Shown here: positions 193-14,526 of the stretch, in pieces
Position numbering within the stretch: position 1 is the first letter of the stretch
Layout of the letters: every line of letters starts with the position of its first letter
Virus record (IMG/VR): IMGVR_UViG_3300022540_000656
Span: 1 to 27,687 of that record
Direction: 5' to 3' (one strand)
Source: a virus
Length of the DNA: 27,687 nt
The notes under the pieces: model-generated
Told to the model about the DNA's origin: nothing
The model's database searches: none
What the model saw: the letters and a program-made list of their open reading frames with translations, nothing else
Position numbers and translations under genes: made by a program

Positions 193-1149
193 ATGGCGTC
201 CAAAGAACCGAAAAATACAACGTCCGCCAAGGCCAAGAAGGACACCCGCAAAAAGACTGCGCCCCAAAAGCGCTCGGCTGGAGCGGGAGGAAAGCCCACG
301 ACCAATGGTGAGGAATCAACCACCTCGGTGCTCGGAGATGGTGAGCCTCCGGTCGAGGATAATGCTACTCCCATATCTCAGGCTGCATATGCCAGGAGGT
401 GTAATGTATCACCCCAGTTTATTAATAAGTTGGTTAAGCAGGAAATTATTATGCTGGATTCAAACGGGAAGGTCATCCCTCACCTGGCTGACAAGGCGCG
501 GGCGACCTGGGCAGACCCTTCCCGAACACATCGCACGAAGGAAAATACCCCTGATAATGGGAAGGCCGGGTCTATTACTGAAGGTGAACCTGATGATTTC
601 AGTGATGAAAAGATGCTTGAAGCCGCAAAGGACATGTTTAATCCTGAGGAGATCAAGCTGCTCGAGGAACTTCTCAAGAAGATGCCGAACTATAACGGTG
701 CCCGGCGCCTGCTTGAGGTGGTCAAAGCGCAAAATGAATTGCTTGAATATCAGCAAGCCCGTGGCCTTGTGGTGGAGGCTGCCGAGACTGAGATCTTCTG
801 GGCGGAGAAGCTGGCCATGGTCAAGACCAAATTGCTCTCCATCCCAAGGAAGATGGCGCAGGAGGTGGCAAGCCTTGTGCTCCAGTACGCCGCTAAGTTC
901 GGGCGCGAGCTGTCCAAAAATGTGGACGCCATCAAGAAAAAGAAGTCCGGCAAGTGGCTGTATAACAAGAAGGCAGGAGCCCTTGAGCTGTACTCCGGCA
1001 AGGTCAAGAAGCCCTTGGCTGTTATCGCATTGAGTATGGAGGCCCCGGAGCATGCGGAGTCTATGGTGATAAATGAGACTGAGACCGCATTATCCACTGA
1101 GGTGTATACGGCCTTGAATGAACTGGCTGGAGAAAAGGAGTCTGAGTGA
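193..1149 (+). CDS. terminase small subunit-like DNA packaging protein
   Basis: This 318-aa protein probably recognises phage DNA for packaging. The first 60 residues are basic and low-complexity (Lys/Ala/Thr-rich). Residues about 61-105 form a winged-helix-like DNA-binding segment (ISQAAYARRCNVSPQFINKL, then a hydrophobic wing). After an acidic linker, about residues 160-235, including EYQQARGLVVEAAE and a helix about RKMAQEVASLVL, match the pattern of Nu1-type small subunits, where this part contacts the large subunit. It is longer than lambda Nu1 (181 aa), mainly because of the N-terminal tail and the C-terminal extension. No good ribosome site precedes the ATG, but the upstream in-frame codon is TGA, so no longer ATG/GTG start exists. 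Position first in the late operon agrees. The large subunit does not follow directly: seven small genes intervene. Confidence 0.75.
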   Translation: MASKEPKNTTSAKAKKDTRKKTAPQKRSAGAGGKPTTNGEESTTSVLGDGEPPVEDNATPISQAAYARRCNVSPQFINKLVKQEIIMLDSNGKVIPHLADKARATWADPSRTHRTKENTPDNGKAGSITEGEPDDFSDEKMLEAAKDMFNPEEIKLLEELLKKMPNYNGARRLLEVVKAQNELLEYQQARGLVVEAAETEIFWAEKLAMVKTKLLSIPRKMAQEVASLVLQYAAKFGRELSKNVDAIKKKKSGKWLYNKKAGALELYSGKVKKPLAVIALSMEAPEHAESMVINETETALSTEVYTALNELAGEKESE

Positions 1150-1373
1150 TACGATTAACCAATAATATTGAAATAGATTTTGGTGTTACGCTTGATGATT
1201 GGAGCATTCCTTTGGGTATTGTATGGTTTAAACGTAGCCATCCCGGATGGCATTTTGTTGTTAGTTTCTTATGTTTTTACATGGGGCTGATAAAGGGGAC
1301 TGATATAGATTTCACCATCGAAGAGACTTGTAATCTTTCAGTTGTTAGCGATGATATCGAGGAGCACCACTGA
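1146..1373 (+). CDS. small hypothetical protein, first of the inter-terminase cassette array
   Basis: This 75-aa protein starts at a GTG overlapping the small terminase stop (GTGA) with an AAAGGAG site 8-14 bases upstream. I do not recognise it. It is AT-rich relative to the terminase gene. It has aromatic-rich stretches (IVWFKRSHPGWHFVVSFLCF), which could be buried strands or a weak membrane segment, and an acidic end EEHH. The last bases and stop (gagcaccactgatg) resemble the end of the gene finishing at 2980 (gatcatcactgatg). It overlaps the next ATG as TGATG, so translation is probably coupled. Confidence 0.55.
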   Translation: MIRLTNNIEIDFGVTLDDWSIPLGIVWFKRSHPGWHFVVSFLCFYMGLIKGTDIDFTIEETCNLSVVSDDIEEHH

Positions 1374-1843
1374 TGAAATGTCCCGAGTGCGGCAAAGATA
1401 TATATCCCAAGGTGCTGCCACATTGTGAGGGTGCGGAGTTCAAGACGCCTCTACTGGATGAAATGGAGACTGGCAAAGCATGGCCCTGCTTCGTAATTTC
1501 TGGCTCCGGTATTAATGACCCGCTTGAGGCTGTCAATAAAAAGGAGCTTGACGCTCTTCGTGCTGAGCGGGATGATTTGAAGGCAGAAGTTATAGAATAC
1601 CAGGAGATATTTGATCTCCAGCGCTTGCGCATGAAGGAGGCGTCTGCCCACTGGCGGGCAGCCAAGGGTGAAGCATCCACGGTATGGCCTGACCTCGGCG
1701 ACCTGCTTACATGGCTGATGGCGGAGATAGCTGATTTGAGGCGGTCTTTGACGGGACGCCCTCTCACCGAGGACGAGCTAAAGGCCAATGAGGCGTTTGA
1801 AAAAAGACAGAAAAGGAGAGTGACTGATGCCAAGAAATATTAA
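1373..1843 (+). CDS. zinc-ribbon-like small protein, duplicate copy 1
   Basis: This 156-aa protein has a Cys motif at the N-terminus (C3, C6, H17, C18 in MKCPECGKDIYPKVLPHCEG) that could bind a metal ion. A charged helical or coiled-coil region follows at about residues 55-90, then a conserved STVWPDLGDLLTWLMAE block. The first 118 residues are nearly the same as those of the gene at 2273 (about 17 differences by my count, no gaps); after that the two proteins diverge completely. Its 3' end is odd. The conserved junction AAAAGGAGAGTGACTGATG is read in a different frame from the other junctions, so this ORF runs through it and stops at 1843, overlapping the next gene by 17 bases. Function unknown. 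Confidence 0.65.
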   Translation: MKCPECGKDIYPKVLPHCEGAEFKTPLLDEMETGKAWPCFVISGSGINDPLEAVNKKELDALRAERDDLKAEVIEYQEIFDLQRLRMKEASAHWRAAKGEASTVWPDLGDLLTWLMAEIADLRRSLTGRPLTEDELKANEAFEKRQKRRVTDAKKY

Positions 1844-2273
1844 TTGTATATATAGGACAGGACGGTCTAACTGTAAACTTGATCCTATTGTGACGAGGCG
1901 GTTCTTTATTTTTAAAAGTTTAAGATATAAGACATGTTGTTTGTTTGTCCATCTTGATAGTACATGCAAGAATCAGGCTTATTGGCCTAAGCCAGCGCCA
2001 GCCCCACCAGCGCCACCGACTAAGTCGGCCAATGTAACTGATGCCTTGGCGCGTGAGATGTTCGAGGATTGGAAAAAGAACCATGTGCCTGAGTTCCTGC
2101 GTGAGCAACTGGATGCCTTGAAGGTTGAGTTCATAAAGGATTTTAGATTGATTGATCCTATCTGGGCGGAGCGTATTAAGTACAAGAAGGCTCTGGAGGA
2201 GATAAAGGCCATAGATGGCATTCATGAGTTGCCATATACTATAGCTGAAACAGCCTTAAAGGAGAGTGACTGA
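1827..2273 (+). CDS. chimeric hypothetical protein with shared C-terminal cassette
   Basis: This 148-aa ORF starts at the ATG of the conserved junction (SD AAAAGGAG). The first 50 residues are AT-rich in DNA, Cys-rich and basic, unlike anything else in the window. A Pro/Ala linker follows (PKPAPAPPAPPTK), then an acidic, probably helical domain. The last ~30 residues (ALEEIKAIDGIHELPYTIAE...) are almost the same as the end of the protein ending at 4360. The product looks like a join of unrelated parts. The N-terminal part may not be a functional domain, and a shorter real gene cannot be excluded. Function unknown. Confidence 0.5.
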   Translation: MPRNINCIYRTGRSNCKLDPIVTRRFFIFKSLRYKTCCLFVHLDSTCKNQAYWPKPAPAPPAPPTKSANVTDALAREMFEDWKKNHVPEFLREQLDALKVEFIKDFRLIDPIWAERIKYKKALEEIKAIDGIHELPYTIAETALKESD

Positions 2274-2980
2274 TGAAATGTCCTGAGTGCGGCAAAGATA
2301 TATATCCCAAGGTGCTGCCACATTGTGAGGGCGCGGTGTTCAAGACGCCTCTACTGGATGAAATGGAGACTGACAAAGCATGGCCCTGCTTTGTAATCTC
2401 TGGCTCCGGTATTAATGACCCGCTTGTGGCTGTCAACAAAAAGGAACTTGATACTCTTCGTGCTGAACGGGATGAATTGAAGGAAGACATTAAAGGGTTG
2501 CAGCTAGTCTTTGATTTGGGTCGCTTGCGCACGAAGGAGGCGTCTGCCCACTGGCGAGCAGCCAAGGGTAAACCATCCACGGTCTGGCCTGACCTTGGCG
2601 ATCTACTCACATGGCTGATGGCGGAGGCGGGGCTTGAAGCAGGAAAGAAAATTGAGGCTGATAAAAAGGGCCAGCCATATGAGGAATTAAGCAAACAGTT
2701 TAAAGCCTCATACTCGCCTGCTGGCGCACCTGCTGGCCAGATACCTTTAGTGGCCAGCAACGCTCAGTTATATGATGCTTGCTTATCATATAGACATGAT
2801 TTTGGATTAATGGACGAGAAAGAGCGCAGGCAATTATTGCAGCAGGCATCTTCTTGGCTGAAGGTTTGGCGTCATACTATCTTGTTTGGCGCGAGCGCTG
2901 CATCCATAAAAATGATGAAAGAATCTGATATGGATTTTTTTAATTCAAAGGTTGGCGATGAGAGTGAGGATCATCACTGA
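2273..2980 (+). CDS. zinc-ribbon-like protein, duplicate copy 2, longer form
   Basis: This 235-aa protein repeats the Cys-motif domain of the gene at 1373 (residues 1-118, same motif C3/C6/H17/C18, offset of exactly 900 bases). It then has its own C-terminal half: a Lys/Glu helix, a short AGAPAG-type linker at about 143-150, and a helical domain with DEKERRQLLQQASSWLKVWR. The start is the ATG inside the GGAGAGTGACTGATG junction. It ends in EDHH and overlaps the next gene as TGATG. The extra domain suggests this may be the complete version and the 1373 gene a partial copy with a replaced end. Function unknown. Confidence 0.65.
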   Translation: MKCPECGKDIYPKVLPHCEGAVFKTPLLDEMETDKAWPCFVISGSGINDPLVAVNKKELDTLRAERDELKEDIKGLQLVFDLGRLRTKEASAHWRAAKGKPSTVWPDLGDLLTWLMAEAGLEAGKKIEADKKGQPYEELSKQFKASYSPAGAPAGQIPLVASNAQLYDACLSYRHDFGLMDEKERRQLLQQASSWLKVWRHTILFGASAASIKMMKESDMDFFNSKVGDESEDHH

Positions 2981-3480
2981 TGGATAAACTGATAGAGACA
3001 TCCAAGAGGTTCATGGTGGCGAGCGGGGGATGTTGGCATGAGCGTAAAGGACACAATATCCCGTGGACATGTGCCCTCTGTGGCTATGTACAACGCAATG
3101 GTCTTGAGGTTGAAAGAGTTAATCCCACCTATACAATTGAATCCATCAAGGCAGCTATCCAGGCATGGCCCTGCGGAATAGAGGACTGCGAGAATGGACG
3201 GATTGAAGTTGGCGGTACTGTAGATGGCAAACCTGTGGAGCCAGATTATGTTCCATGCCCTGACTGCACCGATGGCAAGCGGAATATCTGGTCATCATTT
3301 CTGGCTCACCTTTATGGCCATATCCTTACCGCTCTGATTGACGGCTTTGATGAGACCGTGTCTGGTTCGGAGGATATCCCATGGAGCGAAACTCACGCGG
3401 CGATAATCTTCGGACGGATAATCACCACACCAGAGCCATTGATGGCTGAGTTCCTGTGGAGTATGGAGGTGAAGGACTGA
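2980..3480 (+). CDS. Cys-rich hypothetical protein, possible zinc-finger
   Basis: This 166-aa protein has several cysteine pairs: a WTCALCGY knuckle near residue 32 (with an upstream CWHE), CGIEDCENG near 63, and a CPDCTDGKRN knuckle near 90. This spacing is typical of one or two zinc-binding ribbons. The rest is a compact alpha/beta-looking domain. It sits in the cassette array, starts at the overlapping ATG of TGATGG and ends at another one. I do not recognise a named family; nucleic-acid or protein binding is possible. Confidence 0.6.
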   Translation: MDKLIETSKRFMVASGGCWHERKGHNIPWTCALCGYVQRNGLEVERVNPTYTIESIKAAIQAWPCGIEDCENGRIEVGGTVDGKPVEPDYVPCPDCTDGKRNIWSSFLAHLYGHILTALIDGFDETVSGSEDIPWSETHAAIIFGRIITTPEPLMAEFLWSMEVKD

Positions 3481-3941
3481 TGGCTGAGTGCAAATGCGGA
3501 ACCAGGACGAACTCGCCATCAGGCGTATGCACAGTTTGCACCGTGCAGGCTAGAGTAGCGGAGAAACAAGCGGTCAAGGATAAGCTCAGAAAACAGAAAG
3601 CAGAACAAAAACAAAAAGGAGACAGTAACGATATGGAAGGAACATGTAAACAGTGCGGAGATCTATTCGCCCCAAGAGACGGCAGGCAGAAAAGGTGTGA
3701 TAAATGCACGGGAGAGATAAAGCCTCCCAAAGCTGATGCGCCGCCACCTCCATCATATCCAGACCCAGTCCATGATCCTGAGCCGTCCGACCAGGGTGAG
3801 ACCTCGGAGACATGCGAGACTTGCCTGCATGGGCGTATCTGTTGGCTGGCATTGGTGGCCAGGGACACAAATTATCACTTAGTATCTGACGGTCAGCTCC
3901 GTGGCATGTGCGTGAATTATTCACCGAGGGAGAGTGGCTGA
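3480..3941 (+). CDS. Cys-rich protein with three putative metal-binding knuckles
   Basis: This 153-aa protein has its start at 3480, where the ATG overlaps the preceding stop with a GGAGGTGAAGG ribosome site upstream; an in-frame ATG at 3456 lies before this signal. Three Cys clusters are visible: CKC with CTVC near the N-terminus, CKQCG with CDKC in the middle (separated by RDGRQKR), and CETCLHGRIC plus a late Cys at the C-terminus. A Lys/Gln-rich helix (KLRKQKAEQKQKGD) and a proline-rich acidic linker connect them. Small zinc proteins of this kind are common phage accessory genes, but the role is unknown. Confidence 0.6.
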   Translation: MAECKCGTRTNSPSGVCTVCTVQARVAEKQAVKDKLRKQKAEQKQKGDSNDMEGTCKQCGDLFAPRDGRQKRCDKCTGEIKPPKADAPPPPSYPDPVHDPEPSDQGETSETCETCLHGRICWLALVARDTNYHLVSDGQLRGMCVNYSPRESG

Positions 3942-4360
3942 TGAAAAACAGGACTGTAAATTTCATCCTTAGTCAGGGCTTTAAGTTTTTATGCTGTATG
4001 ATATTGCTTACTTCCCATGTTGCTGATGGCAACGTGTGGGGCATATACATTGAGGATGGGTCCCTTTTAATAGGGGATTTCTGGGGATCGCTTTTCTTAA
4101 TCGCTATTATCTTCAGTATCTATGAAGATCATCAGGAGACATATACCCAAAATGAATCTGATATAGAGCCGACAATAGAGGATGGAGAAGGGCAGGAAGT
4201 TTATACCTGGCCTTTTGTTAGGGTGCGAATAAAGGATTATGAGAAATTTATCCATGAGAGCGATAAATATAAGAATGCTCTGGAGGAGATAAAGGCTATA
4301 GATGGCATTCATGAGTTGCCATATACTATAGCTGAAACCGCCTTAAAGGAGAGTGACTGA
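3941..4360 (+). CDS. two-helix membrane protein with shared C-terminal cassette
   Basis: This 139-aa protein starts at 3941, at the ATG after GAGGGAGAGTGGCTG; an in-frame ATG at 3908 lies inside the previous gene and lacks this site. Two hydrophobic segments are predicted by eye, residues about 8-27 and 44-61, followed by a soluble acidic tail. The last ~30 residues repeat the end of the 1827-2273 product nearly exactly, including the junction DNA. The membrane part is therefore combined with a mobile C-terminal cassette. Inner-membrane location is inferred. Superinfection exclusion is a common role for such small phage membrane proteins but nothing here proves it. Confidence 0.6.
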   Translation: MKNRTVNFILSQGFKFLCCMILLTSHVADGNVWGIYIEDGSLLIGDFWGSLFLIAIIFSIYEDHQETYTQNESDIEPTIEDGEGQEVYTWPFVRVRIKDYEKFIHESDKYKNALEEIKAIDGIHELPYTIAETALKESD

Positions 4361-4545
4361 TGAAAAAATTAAGTGAAATAGGGATTGTGATAGGCATAAT
4401 TGTGATTATTTTGGCTTTTGCCTATGGCTGTTATTGGGTTGGTAAATCCCTTAGCTATTCCATATTCTATGAGGACATGGTGGTTCAGACCATAAGAGAA
4501 ACGGTTAAACCAGAATGTCTCAAGGATCATTCTCCTGAGCACTGA
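4360..4545 (+). CDS. single-pass small membrane protein
   Basis: This 61-aa protein has a basic start (MKKLSE) and one strong hydrophobic segment (residues about 7-27, IGIVIGIIVIILAFAYGCYW), then a short polar tail with HH-type end (DHSPEH). It starts within the conserved GGAGAGTGACTGATG junction, so it is translationally coupled to the preceding gene. It is the last gene of the cassette array, and its 3' end overlaps the likely true beginning of the large terminase reading frame. Role unknown. Confidence 0.55.
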   Translation: MKKLSEIGIVIGIIVIILAFAYGCYWVGKSLSYSIFYEDMVVQTIRETVKPECLKDHSPEH

Positions 4546-4579: not shown

Positions 4580-6445
4580 ATGTACACGCGCGCTGCGCGG
4601 ATGTTTCGTCCACCTCCACCTCTGCTCACCAGTGAATGGGCTGAGCTGTATCGCTATCTTCCCACGGAAGTCACTGCCATGCCCGGCAAATGGAGCAATG
4701 CTAATACGCCCTATCTGGTAGAACCCATGGACGTGGAGCAGCAGGAGCCATGGATAGACACCATCATTATGCAGAAGGCATCTAGGTTGGGCGGCACGGA
4801 GGTAGTTAATAACAAGATGGGACGGCGTATCCACCATGACCCATGCCCTATGACGTATGTGCAGCAGAGCCATGACGAGGCTCAGAAGTATAGCGACCTG
4901 ATACTGGAGCCATTCATTAATCATTGCCAGGTGATCAAGGAGCTGATGACTCTGGATAATACTTTTCTTAAAAAGTTTCCCGGAGGCAACCTGAATATAA
5001 ACGGAGCCCAGACCTCCAAGCCATTCAGGATGGTGCAGAAGCGCGTAGCCATTGGTGATGATATAGACGGCTGGCCATGGACCGTGGGCATTGAGGGTGA
5101 TCCGTGGGAGCAGCTCTGCGGACGTACTGCCAATGATCCCAACCGGCTGAACATTGCTATATCAAAGCCTACCCTCAAGGGATATTCTATTATCGAGCAG
5201 CTCATGCTCACCTCTGACCAGCGGAGATGGAACGCGCCATGCCCCATGTGTGACCACGGGCAGACATTCAAATGGGGAGGGGCTGAGTATGATTTCGGCG
5301 TCAAGTGGAAAAACAACGACTCCAGCACAGCGCATTATCTATGCGAGCATTGCCATAAACCGATTCAGCACTTCCAGAAGCGCCAGATGAACCTTGAGGG
5401 CGAGTGGATAAAGACAGCCATCCCCTTGACCCCTAACATCGCGGGCTATTACTTCTCGCAGATATTCTCAAATTTTGTCCCATGGTCTGATCTGGTGCGG
5501 GCATGGATGAAGTCATACAAGGACCCGAACAAGCTTCAGGTGTTCTTTAATGACCGCCTGGGCGAGACCTTCGAGGATAACGCGGCGCAGGTATCTGATG
5601 ACAATATGCTGAGCAGGCGTGAGGATTACGGGCCCAAGGTGCCGGCAGCCGCATGGGTTCTGACTGCCTTTGCCGATGTGCAGCATGACCGCCTGGAGGT
5701 CAAGGTATGTGCGTGGGGCCGTGAGACTGAATGCTGGGTCACAGAGTATAAGGTGCTCCGTGGAGATCCCCTCATGCCACGGGTATGGGAAGAGCTGCAC
5801 GAATACCTGACAGCTCCGCGTGAGCATGAGACCGGTCTGCGCTTGAAGATAATGGCAACCGGTATTGATTCAGGTTATCTGCAGGAGCAGGTCTTTGCCT
5901 TTGTGCGCCCGCGTAAGCACTTAAACATAATCGCCACCAAGGGCGCATCCACACCGGGCAAGCCCGTGATGGCTGAGCGCCACAGCAAGAACGTGCTGAA
6001 GGACAAGAAGGTCCACCAGTATCTGATAGGCACGGATACAGCCAAGACGTCTGTTAATCGCCGCCTGCTGGTCAAGGAGAAAGGCCCGGCATATATCCAC
6101 TTCTATGAGCATCCTCCAGAGGGATGCGCGACCCTTGATGAATATTACTTTGCGGGCCTGACAAACGCCAAGCGCATTAATGTCAGCAAGAGCCAGAAAC
6201 CCAAGCTCAGCTGGGAAAAGAAGGAGCGCTCCGGACATGATGAGCAGCTGGACTGTATGGTGGGCAACCTTGCCATGCTCAATTGGCTGATGCAGTTTAC
6301 CAGCTTTAATCTGAATAAGGTCTGTGAGCGCATGGAGCGTAAGGCCATGGCTATGGTGCCGACAGGAGCGCCGCAGCCCCCGGCTAAGCGCTCCCGTGTC
6401 CGCCGCAAGGGATTAACCAAAGAAGATATACTGAAAGGACGGTAA
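4580..6445 (+). CDS. terminase large subunit (lambda gpA / GpA family)
   Basis: This is the ATP-driven DNA packaging motor and cos/pac nuclease. 621 aa from the ATG at 4580, close to lambda gpA (641). SEWAELYRYLP near residue 20 is the family's N-terminal signature. QKASRLGGTE (K66) is the deviant Walker A of this family, in which the lysine precedes the usual place, as in lambda KSARVG. AIGDDIDGW (D160-D163) is the Walker B region. C221/C224 and C255/C258 form a putative zinc site. The RNase H-like nuclease begins near TAFADVQHDRLEVKV, with further acidic residues at ATGIDSGY and HDEQLDCMVG. The ATG at 4580 has its GGAGGAG directly adjacent, which is poor for initiation. The frame is open back to 4496 without ATG/GTG/TTG; a CTG at 4535, 8 bases after AAGGA, is a better-spaced candidate. 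Confidence 0.93.
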   Translation: MYTRAARMFRPPPPLLTSEWAELYRYLPTEVTAMPGKWSNANTPYLVEPMDVEQQEPWIDTIIMQKASRLGGTEVVNNKMGRRIHHDPCPMTYVQQSHDEAQKYSDLILEPFINHCQVIKELMTLDNTFLKKFPGGNLNINGAQTSKPFRMVQKRVAIGDDIDGWPWTVGIEGDPWEQLCGRTANDPNRLNIAISKPTLKGYSIIEQLMLTSDQRRWNAPCPMCDHGQTFKWGGAEYDFGVKWKNNDSSTAHYLCEHCHKPIQHFQKRQMNLEGEWIKTAIPLTPNIAGYYFSQIFSNFVPWSDLVRAWMKSYKDPNKLQVFFNDRLGETFEDNAAQVSDDNMLSRREDYGPKVPAAAWVLTAFADVQHDRLEVKVCAWGRETECWVTEYKVLRGDPLMPRVWEELHEYLTAPREHETGLRLKIMATGIDSGYLQEQVFAFVRPRKHLNIIATKGASTPGKPVMAERHSKNVLKDKKVHQYLIGTDTAKTSVNRRLLVKEKGPAYIHFYEHPPEGCATLDEYYFAGLTNAKRINVSKSQKPKLSWEKKERSGHDEQLDCMVGNLAMLNWLMQFTSFNLNKVCERMERKAMAMVPTGAPQPPAKRSRVRRKGLTKEDILKGR

Positions 6446-8922: not shown

Positions 8923-10453
8923 TATAGTCGGTGGTGTCTGGGCCATAACGCCGAAGATGTATTCGGAAATCCAGCGCATATATGGGATACATATGGGCGG
9001 GGATAAGATAGACCTGAAGAAGTTCGAGGCTCAGACAGGTCTAAAGCTGAACAATGAACGCAAATATATGCAGATCATGGATTCCGGGCATGCCATTATA
9101 TCGCTTAATGGTATTATGTCAAAGCGCGCTAACATATTAATGAATATCAGTGGGGGCGTATCGACACAGATCGCCATGGATGAATTTAAATCTGCCCTGA
9201 ATAATCCAGAAATCCATACAATAATTATGAGCGTGGATAGCCCCGGGGGAACCGCTGACGGTGAATTCCCGGAGCTTATAAAATCAGCTCGGGGTATAAA
9301 GCCAGTTATCGCTCTTGTGGACGGCCAGGCCGCTTCACAGGCCTATTGGACCATAAGCGGGGCGGATAAGATCTATATCAATAGTCAGACCGCCATAACA
9401 GGTTCTATAGGCGTAATTATGAAACATATTGATAAGTCGAAGATTCTGGAAGCTGGCGGGGTTAAGATTACGGAGATACTGGCCGGCAAATACAAGAGCA
9501 TGGCTCCAGAACATAAACCTTTGAGCGAGGCTGGAGAGGCATATCTTCAAGATAAGGTTGATTATTTTTATAGCCTGTTTGTGGATACTGTCGCCGCTAA
9601 CCGTGGCATCGATGCCATGAATCATGAAGTCTGGGCCAACGGCGATTTTTTCATAGGCGAACAGGCCATAGAGGTCGGGCTGGTAGACGGTATCAAAACC
9701 TTGGATGCGATTATGGAAGAAACGGGCGGCGGTGATCCGTCCTTATCTGATAATGCGAACGGTGTTTCGCAGGTAGTAGCAGTAAAAGATATATCCAAAG
9801 GGCAGGTTGTTATGGCATCTGATATAAAAGATGTCGAAGCCGTGGCCGGTGATGTCACGGAACCAGACGAAGTGAAAGGACAAGAGACAATGACAAGAGA
9901 CAAATTGAAGGCAGAATTCCCCGAAGTCTATCAGGCCATCCATGACGATGCCTTTAAGGCCGGCGTGGATTCCGTGGACACGGATGCCATGAAGCGCGAT
10001 GGGGCCAAGGCCGAGACGCAGCGCATAGCTGACGTAAGGGCCACACTCATACCGGGCTTTGAGGCTCAGATAGACGCCATGGTGGCGGACGGCGAGACCA
10101 CGGGCGACCAGGCAGCAGGCAGGCTCATCAAGGCCCAGCAGGACGCCCTCAAGGATAAGGGCGCGGATGTGAGCAAGGATGCTGCCGACCTCATCCAGGC
10201 CAGCGCAGAACCTCAGGCCCCGGGAACTGAGGCAATCGCCGCCCTAGAAGCAGAGTGGTCCAAGATGGATGCGGATGCTCAGGCGGGATACGGTTCCAAA
10301 GAAGCATTTGTCGCTGCCGAGCAGAAGTGGGCCAAGATGGCTGCGGATGCTCAGGCGGGATACGGTTCCAAAGAAGCATTTGTCGCATATGAGAAAAACA
10401 TACACAGGGCCAGAACCAGAACGAGCCCGACAGGAGGTGACGACAATGCGTAA
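8909..10453 (+). CDS. S49-family prohead protease with C-terminal scaffold domain (lambda gpC-like)
   Basis: This protein processes the prohead. 514 aa. Residues about 60-265 form the SppA/S49 fold: VDSPGG near 109-114, catalytic serine S143 in GQAASQAYW, GSIGVIM near 165, and the general-base lysine K196 in GKYKSMAPE. Residues 266-514 are acidic and Ala/Gln-rich, like the scaffold part of lambda gpC/Nu3. An internal in-frame ATG at 9890 can make the scaffold alone. The C-terminus carries a 24-residue repeat (DAQAGYGSKEAFVA twice). The start has GGAGGAA 8 bases upstream. It overlaps the next gene by 8 bases. Confidence 0.93.
   Translation: MKLSDIVGGVWAITPKMYSEIQRIYGIHMGGDKIDLKKFEAQTGLKLNNERKYMQIMDSGHAIISLNGIMSKRANILMNISGGVSTQIAMDEFKSALNNPEIHTIIMSVDSPGGTADGEFPELIKSARGIKPVIALVDGQAASQAYWTISGADKIYINSQTAITGSIGVIMKHIDKSKILEAGGVKITEILAGKYKSMAPEHKPLSEAGEAYLQDKVDYFYSLFVDTVAANRGIDAMNHEVWANGDFFIGEQAIEVGLVDGIKTLDAIMEETGGGDPSLSDNANGVSQVVAVKDISKGQVVMASDIKDVEAVAGDVTEPDEVKGQETMTRDKLKAEFPEVYQAIHDDAFKAGVDSVDTDAMKRDGAKAETQRIADVRATLIPGFEAQIDAMVADGETTGDQAAGRLIKAQQDALKDKGADVSKDAADLIQASAEPQAPGTEAIAALEAEWSKMDADAQAGYGSKEAFVAAEQKWAKMAADAQAGYGSKEAFVAYEKNIHRARTRTSPTGGDDNA
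9890..10453 (+). CDS. nested capsid scaffold protein (Nu3-like internal start)
   Basis: In the same frame as the protease, ATG at 9890 (residue 328) is preceded by AAAGGA at 9875-9880. It would give a 187-aa acidic helical protein beginning MTRDKLKAEFPEVYQAIHDD, which resembles the N-terminus of free-standing phage scaffolds. In lambda, Nu3 is made from an internal start within gene C in the same way. It would line the inside of the prohead and be removed on maturation. The internal start is inferred from sequence, not proven. Confidence 0.65.
   Translation: MTRDKLKAEFPEVYQAIHDDAFKAGVDSVDTDAMKRDGAKAETQRIADVRATLIPGFEAQIDAMVADGETTGDQAAGRLIKAQQDALKDKGADVSKDAADLIQASAEPQAPGTEAIAALEAEWSKMDADAQAGYGSKEAFVAAEQKWAKMAADAQAGYGSKEAFVAYEKNIHRARTRTSPTGGDDNA
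10260..10386 (+). repeat. 72-bp period tandem repeat in the scaffold C-terminus
   Basis: A block of about 55 bases beginning CCAAGATGG and ending CATTTGTCGC occurs at 10260-10314 and 10332-10386 with a single central mismatch (A versus C). The period is 72 bases, so the reading frame is kept and 24 residues are duplicated. The low divergence points to a recent slip or unequal recombination event. Confidence 0.85.
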
Positions 10454-11469: not shown

Positions 11470-12435
11470 ATGGGTAAAGGAATAGGCGAACTCACAAGCA
11501 AGGCCATAATGGGTATGTACTTCATGGCTCTTAGCGTGGATAACGGCGAGCCCTGGCTGGGCATGGTCGCCAATAATCCGCCTTTTGCAAGCACACAGGA
11601 CTCAGAGAAATACGGCTGGCTCGGACAGGTTCCGGGGCTTCAGAGATGGGCTGCGGGCCGCCAGAGAAAGGGCCTCAAGGATTACTCACATACTATTATC
11701 AATGAGGAGTGGGAATCCACATTGGATATCCTGATAAAGGATATGCGTCAGGATAAGACCGGCCAGCTCCAGATAAGGGTTAATGACCACACTGTAAGAG
11801 CCCAGAGCCACGATGCTGACCTGATAACCACATTGCTGGTGGATGGTACAAGCGAGACCTGCTATGATGGCGAGTATTTCTTTGATACCGACCATCCTGT
11901 GGGCGAGAGCACTGACAGTCCCGGTACTGCAAGCAATAAGCTGACCAGCGCTATTGTGGACAAGGATGCCGCTACAGTTGCGGAGATGTCAACCACAATA
12001 TATGCTGCCATCACGGCCATGGCGGGCTTCAAGGATGACCAGAACGAGCCGATGAATACCGCAGCCAAGAACTTTGTAGTCATGGTTCCACAGGAAATGT
12101 TCCCGTCCGCTCAGGCTGCCATAGCTGACATGACCATTCAGGGTACAAGCGGTGCTATAGACAATGCTCTGGCAAGGCAGAAGAAGTACAACGTGACAGT
12201 GGAGATAAATCCGAGGCTGACAGCCACGGACGCCTTCTATATCTTCCGCACGGATGCCAGCGTGAAGCCTATCATCAGGCAGCAGGAGCAGCCTTTGACC
12301 GCTTCTGCTCTGGCAGAAGGTTCCGATTATGCTTTTAATTTCAAGAGCTATCAGTTCGGGCTTGAGATAAACAAGGGTGTGGGCTATGGCTTCTGGCAGT
12401 ATGCCATTAAGCATACGTTCACCACAGCAGCATAG
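11470..12435 (+). CDS. major capsid protein, Mu gpT family
   Basis: This protein forms the icosahedral shell with the HK97 fold. 321 aa, close to Mu gpT (305). The family pattern is clear: SEKYGWLGQVPGLQRWAAGRQRKGLKDYSHTIINEEWESTLDI, a DDLG-like position (DMRQDKTGQL), then LVDGTSETCYDGEYFFDTDHPVGES and KNFVVMVPQEMF, and the C-terminal FRTDASVKPIIRQQEQ. Lambda gpE has no such pattern. The start follows AAAGGAG at 11453-11459, 10 bases upstream. The gene stands alone between a 55-base gap and a strong terminator, as expected for the most abundant structural protein. Confidence 0.9.
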   Translation: MGKGIGELTSKAIMGMYFMALSVDNGEPWLGMVANNPPFASTQDSEKYGWLGQVPGLQRWAAGRQRKGLKDYSHTIINEEWESTLDILIKDMRQDKTGQLQIRVNDHTVRAQSHDADLITTLLVDGTSETCYDGEYFFDTDHPVGESTDSPGTASNKLTSAIVDKDAATVAEMSTTIYAAITAMAGFKDDQNEPMNTAAKNFVVMVPQEMFPSAQAAIADMTIQGTSGAIDNALARQKKYNVTVEINPRLTATDAFYIFRTDASVKPIIRQQEQPLTASALAEGSDYAFNFKSYQFGLEINKGVGYGFWQYAIKHTFTTAA

Positions 12436-12505: not shown

Positions 12506-13006
12506 ATGAAAGAATTCAGGATAAAAGATAACAGAAAACACGTACATATACCTATTGGCAGCATCATAGGGCTGACAGATGAGCAATATGCTGACCGTCA
12601 GCATAAACTTGAACTGGTGGACAAGGGCACATACAGGGTTTTACAGTCGGTTGGATTCAAGCGCGGTGAGGTCATCGGCATAGAGCCGGGCCAGTGCCCC
12701 AAGACCGGCCTTGAGCCTGTGGAGGCCGAAGACCATATCATCGATTCTGAGGGAACAGCTCGCGCTGGCGTAGACGCTGAGCATGACAACGGCGACGACA
12801 ACGGCGACGACAACGGCGACGACAACGGCGACGACAACGGCCCTACCCTTGATGATACTCTCAATGACATGTCAGACGATGAGATCAAAGAGTCCCTTGG
12901 TCAGCCTGGTCGCGAGATCAGCTTCCATCACAATACAGGCAGGCCCAAGCTTCAGGCCATGCTCAAGGACGCCATAGAGAAGGAGCTGGGGCAGGATAGT
13001 GATTAA
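12506..13006 (+). CDS. acidic head protein at the gpFI position, with DNGD repeats
   Basis: This 166-aa protein starts at 12506 after AAAGGGAG; an in-frame ATG at 12452 would put the terminator inside the gene and is rejected. Residues 1-75 form a compact beta/alpha domain (KHVHIPIGSIIGLTDEQYADRQ, TYRVLQSVGFKRGEVIGIE). Residues 94-112 are a DNGD repeat linker encoded by a 12-bp microsatellite. The C-terminus (MSDDEIKESLGQPGREISFHHNTGRPKLQAMLKDAI) resembles a small HeH/LEM or SAP-type helical domain, often found in phage proteins next to capsid genes. By position and acidity it corresponds to lambda gpFI, but I see no clear homology. Confidence 0.6.
   Translation: MKEFRIKDNRKHVHIPIGSIIGLTDEQYADRQHKLELVDKGTYRVLQSVGFKRGEVIGIEPGQCPKTGLEPVEAEDHIIDSEGTARAGVDAEHDNGDDNGDDNGDDNGDDNGPTLDDTLNDMSDDEIKESLGQPGREISFHHNTGRPKLQAMLKDAIEKELGQDSD
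12785..12841 (+). repeat. 12-bp tandem repeat GACAACGGCGAC
   Basis: Four full perfect copies (12785-12832) and most of a fifth encode (Asp-Asn-Gly-Asp)n as a flexible, acidic, possibly calcium-binding linker. Copies are exact, so the copy number may vary between relatives. Confidence 0.95.
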
Positions 13007-13874
13007 GCTTCGTAGATATATCGGCATGATCCTCATGGGGTTGGCCCTGGCAATGTCGGCAATCCCGGCATATGCCGGGGTCCCTGCCGATACCAGGCAT
13101 GTCTATGTAATTGACCGTAACGGAGATTATCTGGAGATAGTCAACAATGGTTCCATTGATGTAAATATTCAGGATCAGACATCGGATGCCTTGTTTATTA
13201 AGTTGCATCAACATTTAGGTGCCGGAATAACATTGACTTCCGATACTTCATTGAATGATACCATCCTCACCGTAGCCGAAGGGCACGGGGCCGTTGCGGG
13301 GAACTTGATATGTCTTAAAGAGAGTGATGAATATTATCAAGGGACTGTCCTATCTACAACAGCCACGACCATAACTCTTGATATGCCACTTGATTTTGCC
13401 TTTACCGCAGGCGCTTATTGTTCCCCGACCACTGATCAGATGGGAGTGGATGGTTCCAGCACTGACCAGACTTTTCACTTACAGCCTAACGATGGCGTTA
13501 AGTGGGATATCACACAACTGAATTGTATAATTAACGGGACTGGCGTTATGGATTCCGAGCAATTCGGTGATATAGCCGCCTTGACTAATGGCTTGGTTAT
13601 CAGAAAACAGGACGGACAGGATTCGACGAAGAATCTTTTTAATGTAAAGAATAATGCCGACTGGTCACTCAGGGGCCAGATTATTTATGATCCAAAGGCC
13701 CCGGCAGGGACAAGCGCGGTTAGGATAAATATAGTATTTGGCGGTCAGGGAGCTTCGGGTGTAGTTATTCGTCTTGACGGTTCGTTGGAACAGGAATTTA
13801 TAATTATCGTCAGGGACGATGCAAGCGCCGTTGGTATTAAATGTGAAGCAATAGGTCATAAGGTTGTTGATTAA
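12999..13874 (+). CDS. secreted head-module protein 1 (Sec signal peptide)
   Basis: This 291-aa protein starts at a GTG overlapping the previous stop. The first 26 residues are a textbook signal peptide: basic KLRR, hydrophobic GMILMGLALAMS, and cleavage after AYA. The mature protein begins GVPADTRHVYVIDRNGDYLEI, a block shared with the next gene product. It is then beta-rich: a middle domain with SLNDTILTVAEGHGAVAGNLICL and a C-terminal domain with LRGQIIYDPKAPAGTSAVRINIVFGG. It is flanked by head genes, so it may be a virion surface protein. The export signal is unusual for that, and the protein may instead act in the periplasm or at the cell surface. No family assigned. Confidence 0.65.
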   Translation: MIKLRRYIGMILMGLALAMSAIPAYAGVPADTRHVYVIDRNGDYLEIVNNGSIDVNIQDQTSDALFIKLHQHLGAGITLTSDTSLNDTILTVAEGHGAVAGNLICLKESDEYYQGTVLSTTATTITLDMPLDFAFTAGAYCSPTTDQMGVDGSSTDQTFHLQPNDGVKWDITQLNCIINGTGVMDSEQFGDIAALTNGLVIRKQDGQDSTKNLFNVKNNADWSLRGQIIYDPKAPAGTSAVRINIVFGGQGASGVVIRLDGSLEQEFIIIVRDDASAVGIKCEAIGHKVVD

Positions 13875-13884
13875 AGGAGGCGAT

Positions 13885-14526
13885 GTGAAATCAATACAGA
13901 TATATATATTTATTGCAATTCTTCTTATTTTATCCAGTGTGACAATAATCAATGCCGCCGGGGTCCCGCCGTCAACTGAGCCCCGTTATATAATCGACCG
14001 CGAAGGTGATTATTCCAAGGTCACGACATCTGGGGGGCTAGTTGTTGTTTCGACTGATTACGCACACCACGAAAATCACGACGGCAACGCTTATCAGATA
14101 ACCAATTCCGCTACATTGGCATCAGGTGCGGCCAGTAAGATATTCATTAACACGCCCGCCGCGTCTTCCGGCATTGTCCATTTGATATATCAGACAAGGG
14201 CTAGTGGTGAAGCCAATGTGAAACTATATGAATTTACGGAAGTGTCTGATATAGGGACACCGAAGATCCCTGTCAATAAAAACAGGACAAGTTCTAATAT
14301 ATCAGCAACTTCGATATCACTTGCGCCGACCGTTACGGCTCTTGGGAATCTTATCAGTGAAGCCCATTTCGGTTCGGGACAGGCCCAGGGCGGAGAATCA
14401 CGCGGAATACATGAATTTGTATTGAGGCCCTTAACATCTTATTTCCTAAATACCGTATCTGAGGCCGCGAACAATGACACATTTACAGAAATGGACTGGT
14501 ACGAAGACAGCGGGGACGCGCCTTAA
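13885..14526 (+). CDS. secreted head-module protein 2 (Sec signal peptide)
   Basis: This 213-aa protein starts at the GTG at 13885, 4 bases after AAAGGAGG; an in-frame ATG at 13864 overlaps the previous gene and has no site. Residues 1-24 are a signal peptide ending INA. The mature start, AGVPPSTEPRYIIDREGDYSKV, is related to that of the preceding protein. The rest (YAHHENHDGNAYQITN, FINTPAASSGIVHLIYQTRASGEANVKLYEF, GTPKIPVNKNRTSSN, ending EMDWYEDSGD) fits a beta-rich domain that I recall from hypothetical proteins in many phage head regions, usually without a signal peptide. Virion decoration is likely by context; the role of export is unknown. Confidence 0.7.
   Translation: MKSIQIYIFIAILLILSSVTIINAAGVPPSTEPRYIIDREGDYSKVTTSGGLVVVSTDYAHHENHDGNAYQITNSATLASGAASKIFINTPAASSGIVHLIYQTRASGEANVKLYEFTEVSDIGTPKIPVNKNRTSSNISATSISLAPTVTALGNLISEAHFGSGQAQGGESRGIHEFVLRPLTSYFLNTVSEAANNDTFTEMDWYEDSGDAP

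Follow-up and report, generated by a model that had tools for sequence, protein, structure and literature searches.

Whether phage mosaics arise by homology at short junctions or by random joining followed by selection is an old question. For lambdoid phages, short boundary sequences have been proposed as the homology at which mosaic exchange takes place (Susskind and Botstein 1978; Clark et al. 2001, on HK620; both as cited in passages of PMC3029335), and passages of the same paper describe genes 67 and 68 of mycobacteriophage Island3, neighbours which have the same last 18 residues at the DNA level, a likeness put down to recombination at a sequence of about 50 bp. Cluster K mycobacteriophages (PMC3203893) and Cluster EF Microbacterium phages (PMC7302621) carry Start-Associated Sequences (SAS), a repeated 13-bp sequence which contains a Shine-Dalgarno (SD) motif, stands just before start codons and is conserved beyond the need of a ribosome-binding site (RBS); for Cluster K, a role in recombination was also suggested by the authors (PMC3203893). 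Exchange at diverged homology has been argued to be common owing to phage recombinases (PMC3945230), and stop-start overlaps are known to couple translation in bacteria and archaea (PMC6728339). Here, we describe an array of eight small open reading frames (ORFs), a1 to a8, located between the genes for the small (terS) and large (terL) terminase subunits of the uncultured virus IMGVR_UViG_3300022540_000656, whose entire record of 27,687 bases is the window analysed. We hold it to be reasonably likely that this is an accessory array inserted between terS and terL, that its genes are coupled at TGATG overlaps, and that homology at these junctions lay behind duplication and exchange within it.

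The first-pass annotation had remarked that terminase genes are normally adjacent and stand 3.4 kb apart here, and wider comparison bears this out. terS (193-1149; PHROG_57, E-value 7.9e-18 across residues 59-228) and terL (4580-6445) are 3431 nt apart. Among 63 relatives whose terS could be recognised upstream of terL, the distance is -55 to +392 nt, in a survey in which terL starts were extrapolated from alignments, many contigs had little upstream sequence, some loci had no recognisable terS, and a few split-terminase cases could have been missed. The comparison loci comprised 80 found by terL profile and six by portal, plus phage records, and the relatives retrieved by profile search are only distant, at 31-37% identity in terL and 39-47% in the portal. 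terS adjoins terL in all of the portal-closest relatives covering both genes (L085, L086, L088 and L089), and the insertion therefore looks derived; the lineage of this virus is probably where it occurred. The terL product contains both the ATPase and the nuclease domain of the GpA-type terminase module (Pfam GpA_ATPase PF05876, 2.2e-56; GpA_nuclease PF20454, 6.9e-66), and terS is not found directly upstream of terL. terS and terL need not adjoin in GpA phages, then, which matters for annotation that assumes adjacency. The terminase genes, the eight ORFs between them and the junctions, duplicated units and repeats of the array lie on the plus strand.

The array genes are joined in a manner not used elsewhere in the window. 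TGATG occurs at all seven array junctions (1371, 1825, 2271, 2978, 3478, 3939 and 4358, as first annotated) and at none of the 23 other gene starts (Fisher p = 5e-7), each array junction reading (A/G)CTGATG. Over the 18 nt ending in ATG, array junctions share on average 13.4 of 18 positions and other starts 7.0; the non-array start closest to the recurring unit reaches 13/18, and pairs of non-array starts do not exceed 11. The unit itself, AAAGGAGAGTGACTGATG, is present in exact form at 1812-1829, 2258-2275 and 4345-4362 and with 15/18 identity at 3926-3943 (GAGGGAGAGTGGCTGATG), and these four are the only sites in the window with three or fewer mismatches, where 0.01 would be expected. A second junction type, (C/T)GAGGA(G/T)CA(C/T)CACTGATG, is found at 1358-1375 (CGAGGAGCACCACTGATG) and 2965-2982 (TGAGGATCATCACTGATG), the two being 15/18 identical, and the remaining junction, at 3465-3482, reads GGAGGTGAAGGACTGATG. 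The sequence resembling GGAGAGT(G/T)(A/G)CTGATG that had been attributed to four junctions is indeed there, as GGAGAGTG(A/G)CTGATG at 1815, 2261, 3929 and 4348, but the four do not count as independent units, as those at 2258 and 4345 are two copies of one duplicated tail. The shift of frame noted at 1825 is also real. The full 18-mer is retained at this junction out of frame for the upstream gene a2, which passes the TGA and stops at the TAA at 1843, 17 nt into a3; in this one case, therefore, the recurring element is a unit of DNA (or RNA) and not a peptide tail.

The array also contains a tandem duplication, which was missed by the first-pass annotation. Unit A (1371-2270, 900 bp) and unit B (2271-4357, 2087 bp) are adjacent and meet at junction 2271; each begins with a copy of a repeat termed D1, ends with a copy of a repeat termed D2 and has TGATG junctions at both ends, the interior of unit B being unlike that of unit A. 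D1 is a gapless 357-nt repeat (1370-1726 and 2270-2626), and D2 measures about 105 nt (2172-2278 and 4259-4365), so that the tail of D2 and the head of D1 meet at the junction unit at 2258 and the unit at 4345 belongs to the second D2 copy; junctions 2258 and 4345 are identical because the D2 tail was duplicated. To the left of D1 and to the right of D2, identity stays close to 100% up to the TGATG itself and drops to background there. As the units share their ends and differ inside, the genes at their edges are chimeric: a2 (1373-1843, 156 aa, with a CxxC N-terminus and a predicted coiled region) and a4 (2273-2980, 235 aa) share a head, 84% identical over 120 aa, and have different ends, while a3 (1827-2273, 148 aa) and a7 (3941-4360, 139 aa) share a C-terminal module of about 33 aa and have different beginnings, their N-termini not being alike when compared.

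Divergence between the copies was measured as the nonsynonymous (dN) and synonymous (dS) substitution rates. D1 has a dN of 0.083 and a dS of 0.279 (dN/dS 0.30), and D2 a dN of 0.052 and a dS of 0.307 (dN/dS 0.17). Within the otherwise roughly 93% identical D1 repeat, a 45-nt block (1583-1627 and 2483-2527) reaches only about 60% identity; most of its changes are non-synonymous, and it is a possible micro-exchange. Outside this block, D1 has a dN/dS of about 0.15, with dS of 0.20 and 0.30, and the two shared parts, again without the block, range in dS from 0.20 to 0.31. The low dN/dS implies that both copies have been kept as proteins under purifying selection, and the similar dS of D1 and D2 fits one duplication event. 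Dispersed repeats of at least 40 nt are otherwise limited in the window to a single 61-nt pair near 10.3 kb (10254-10386), whose copies lie 72 nt apart, are 97% identical and run in frame near the C-terminus of a protease-like gene.

The C-terminal part of a4, which is not found in a2, contains a module, ACLSYRHDFGLM (ACLSYRHDFGL, residues 162-200), that is present in other phages. It matches Tetrasphaera phage TJE1 with an E-value of 3e-4 and also occurs in Rhodobacter phages and at 12 IMG/VR loci, at about 30-53% identity. The N-termini to which it is joined differ widely, from a zinc-ribbon-like one (L098) to a Lar restriction-alleviation domain (L099; PF14354, 6.6e-7) and coiled-coil-like ones (L102-L104). 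Because the module is found on many N-termini elsewhere, a4 is best described as a chimera in which a travelling module is joined to a D1 head. The fusion of the module to a Lar domain may hint, if only faintly, at a link with restriction.

Three of the IMG/VR loci with the a4 module, L100, L103 and L104, form a related group that is otherwise unrelated to the window and has only this module in common with it. Each has a small-gene array shortly upstream of a terminase large-subunit gene (shown in L103), in which an 18-nt SD-ATGA unit of their own, AAAGGAGAAAAACACATGA, unlike that of the window in sequence but equivalent to it, recurs at gene starts, with four exact copies in L103, four in L104, and one exact and two near-exact copies in L100. 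L103 and L104 share a 1482-nt block, 99.5% identical, that runs from one L103 copy of AAAGGAGAAAAACACATGA to another, and beyond its right end unrelated sequence follows directly after ATGA. Since the alignment ends run through the shared junction, the crossover is placed in or near the junction rather than at an exact base. In L100, 9 of 22 block ends have a stop codon no more than 20 nt away, against 2.9 expected (p 0.005), and two neighbouring L100 genes have a 132-nt C-terminal stretch in common, like a3 and a7. Given that AAAGGAGAAAAACACATGA recurs and that exchanged blocks end there, junction-based shuffling is plausible. Beside the small-gene array of L103, a 15-bp repeat array (4985-5299) has pentapeptide-repeat-like coding (GADLREAKLQ).

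If junction homology did shape the array, its history could have run as follows. The eight ORFs would be read as one message, with most of them linked by termination-reinitiation at TGATG and the SD placed inside the last codons of the preceding gene, as the sequence suggests. Near-identical junctions would have served as short homology for duplication and later for exchange, and a break falling within a junction would have allowed coupling to the neighbouring genes to survive. The two copies would then have been given different interiors, producing the chimeric pairs a2/a4 and a3/a7. The encoded proteins are probably accessory proteins that act in host interaction. A bolder version, in which the terS-terL interval is a dedicated docking site and the 18-nt SD-stop-start unit is both translational coupler and recombination site, strikes us as unlikely; if true, the packaging genes would be left undisturbed while accessory genes were gained, lost or fused.

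Several points weigh against a role of the junctions in exchange. The right edge of D1 (about 1726/2626) and the left edge of D2 (about 2172/4259), which make up half of the repeat edges, lie inside genes. Exchange between phages was not seen at this locus, as searches of IMG/VR with terL, a4, a7, a D1 pattern and a D1 alignment, and of GTDB genomes with terL and D1, returned no relative of the array. The comparison phages have only one module in common with the window, and the L103/L104 pair taken alone is not significant (2/6 breakpoints, p 0.19). Finally, the pattern would look much the same after a single duplication, whatever its route, that selection had filtered for functional genes. 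The earlier proposal of a shared SD-stop-start unit within which genes could be swapped with coupling intact thus survives in part: the junctions form a shared unit far beyond what is seen elsewhere in the genome, and the outer block edges fall on them, but module edges also lie within genes, and whole-gene swapping is therefore only part of the story.

The alternative that survives best is one ordinary tandem duplication by illegitimate recombination, after which the interior of one copy was replaced, with no contribution of the junction sequence to the exchange. On this account, breaks would be seen at gene ends simply because selection puts up with them there, and the junctions would owe most of their likeness to the duplication. 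Units A and B do explain why junctions 2258 and 4345 are identical, those at 1812 and 3926 are possibly equivalent inner junctions of the two units and hence alike by duplication, the similar dS of D1 and D2 is that expected of one event, and two repeat edges are internal to genes. What this account explains poorly is that 1812 and 2258, different junctions of one unit, are nonetheless 18/18 identical with unrelated flanks, and that the edges of the L103/L104 block coincide with repeated SD-start units; we regard it as a possible explanation, though clearly the less probable one. It is also conceivable that the junctions are alike only as efficient termination-reinitiation sites (SD plus TGATG) for the same host ribosome, without any exchange. 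All of them do combine the TGATG overlap with a purine run that resembles an SD and lies a short way upstream of the ATG, and such overlaps couple translation (PMC6728339). However, TGATG is absent from all other gene starts in the window, none of which closely resembles the unit (13/18 at best), positions outside SD and TGATG are identical as well, and the D1 and D2 duplications are left unexplained, which makes this account improbable. It is highly improbable that misassembly of the metagenomic contig produced the duplication or the split terminase. The record is indeed an uncultured virus contig with no close relative, but copies made by misassembly would be nearly identical; here they agree at 88-95% of positions, synonymous changes are in excess, and the reading frames are intact throughout.

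As to gene content, seven small genes had originally been reported between the terminase genes; a small-gene array does stand there, but the ORFs number eight (starts at 1146, 1373, 1827, 2273, 2980, 3480, 3941 and 4360). The additional feature of small Cys-rich and membrane proteins applies to only four of them: a5 (2980-3480, 166 aa, seven Cys and two CxxC, no family match) and a6 (3480-3941, 153 aa, 12 Cys and four CxxC) are clearly Cys-rich, and a7, with its hydrophobic N-terminal half, and a8 (4360-4545, 61 aa, one predicted membrane segment) have clear membrane segments. The first ORF, a1 (1146-1373, 75 aa, as given in the ORF list), has a GTG start which overlaps the terS stop as GTGA. 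Searches of a1-a8 against PADLOC (which covers mainly defence, not counter-defence), Pfam, PHROG and NCBIfam gave no match of note, which leaves the suggested anti-defence role with no direct support and the Lar fusion in L099 as its one indirect pointer; terS, a3, a5 and a7 had no match in the phage collection. Rfam likewise gave no match, promoter-like sites were no commoner than chance, and AlphaFold models of a4 and a5 were too poor for use (mean predicted local distance difference test scores of 36 and 41).

Some features of individual genes deserve mention. Residues 4-34 of a1 (1146-1250) resemble a portal motif, GV..D.W..PLG...FK..HPG, present in several relatives; a1 gave weak tblastn matches to three portal genes, but the portal profile reached only an E-value of 0.4, so that a portal fragment is a tentative reading of a1. 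Within a6, an in-frame internal ATG at 3634 has a strong SD (AAAGGAGACAGTAACGATATG) resembling the RBS of the gene at 11470 (AAAGGAGACTTAACGATATG), and a6 may thus represent two fused genes or give rise to two products. A likeness to a6 in L053 was rejected as being out of frame and within another gene, and one between a5 and the terL zinc motif as too weak. The start codon of terL is uncertain, with the frame open upstream to at least 4523 and an SD, GGAGGAG, touching the ATG at 4580. Its Walker-like motif (about 4780-4805) is GGTE rather than GKTE, which is a family variant, as L053 has GGTE too. Further downstream, two neighbouring ORFs (12999-14526) have similar N-terminal parts, signal-peptide-like and followed by GVP...Y(V/I)IDR.GDY, and are probably paralogous.

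The position of the array finds a parallel in the T7-like gene order, where gene 18 (terS) and gene 19 (terL) are separated by the Rz/Rz1 genes. Small genes thus lie between terS and terL in both; however, the T7-like inserts are lysis genes, whereas here the likely lysis genes are elsewhere (about 14.8-16.6 kb, as read from the sequence) and no search ties the inserted genes to lysis. The lambdoid boundary sequences follow the same logic as the array, in that junctions between genes or modules carry a short conserved sequence (here 13.4 versus 7.0 of 18 positions), but they were inferred from several phages, while here the comparison is made within one genome and by analogy with L100, L103 and L104. 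The shared tail of Island3 genes 67 and 68, as given in passages of PMC3029335, is nearly the same trace as that left in a3 and a7; those passages describe one shared tail and make no mention of a tandem unit or of a repeated SD-stop-start motif. The likeness to the SAS lies in an SD-containing repeat just before start codons, here at 1812, 2258, 3926 and 4345. SAS, however, occur in 10-19 copies, in Cluster K mostly within intergenic gaps of more than 50 bp in the non-structural half and often with an extended upstream element, whereas the unit described here has four copies, includes a stop codon, leaves no intergenic space because it overlaps the end of the upstream gene, and belongs to the packaging module. 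Nor does it follow the SAS consensus, GGGATAGGAGCCC, with at least 10 copies across the non-structural half; its sequence is different and its four copies are confined to 1.8-4.4 kb, on a contig that may lack the non-structural half. Because boundary sequences, Island3 67/68 and SAS precede it, the array exemplifies a kind of phage gene shuffling that is already known, here in an unusual location. The window array, and better still L100, L103 and L104, which are the better system for testing junction recombination, provide concrete cases in which one ribosome-binding junction recurs and lies at the borders of blocks that were duplicated or exchanged.

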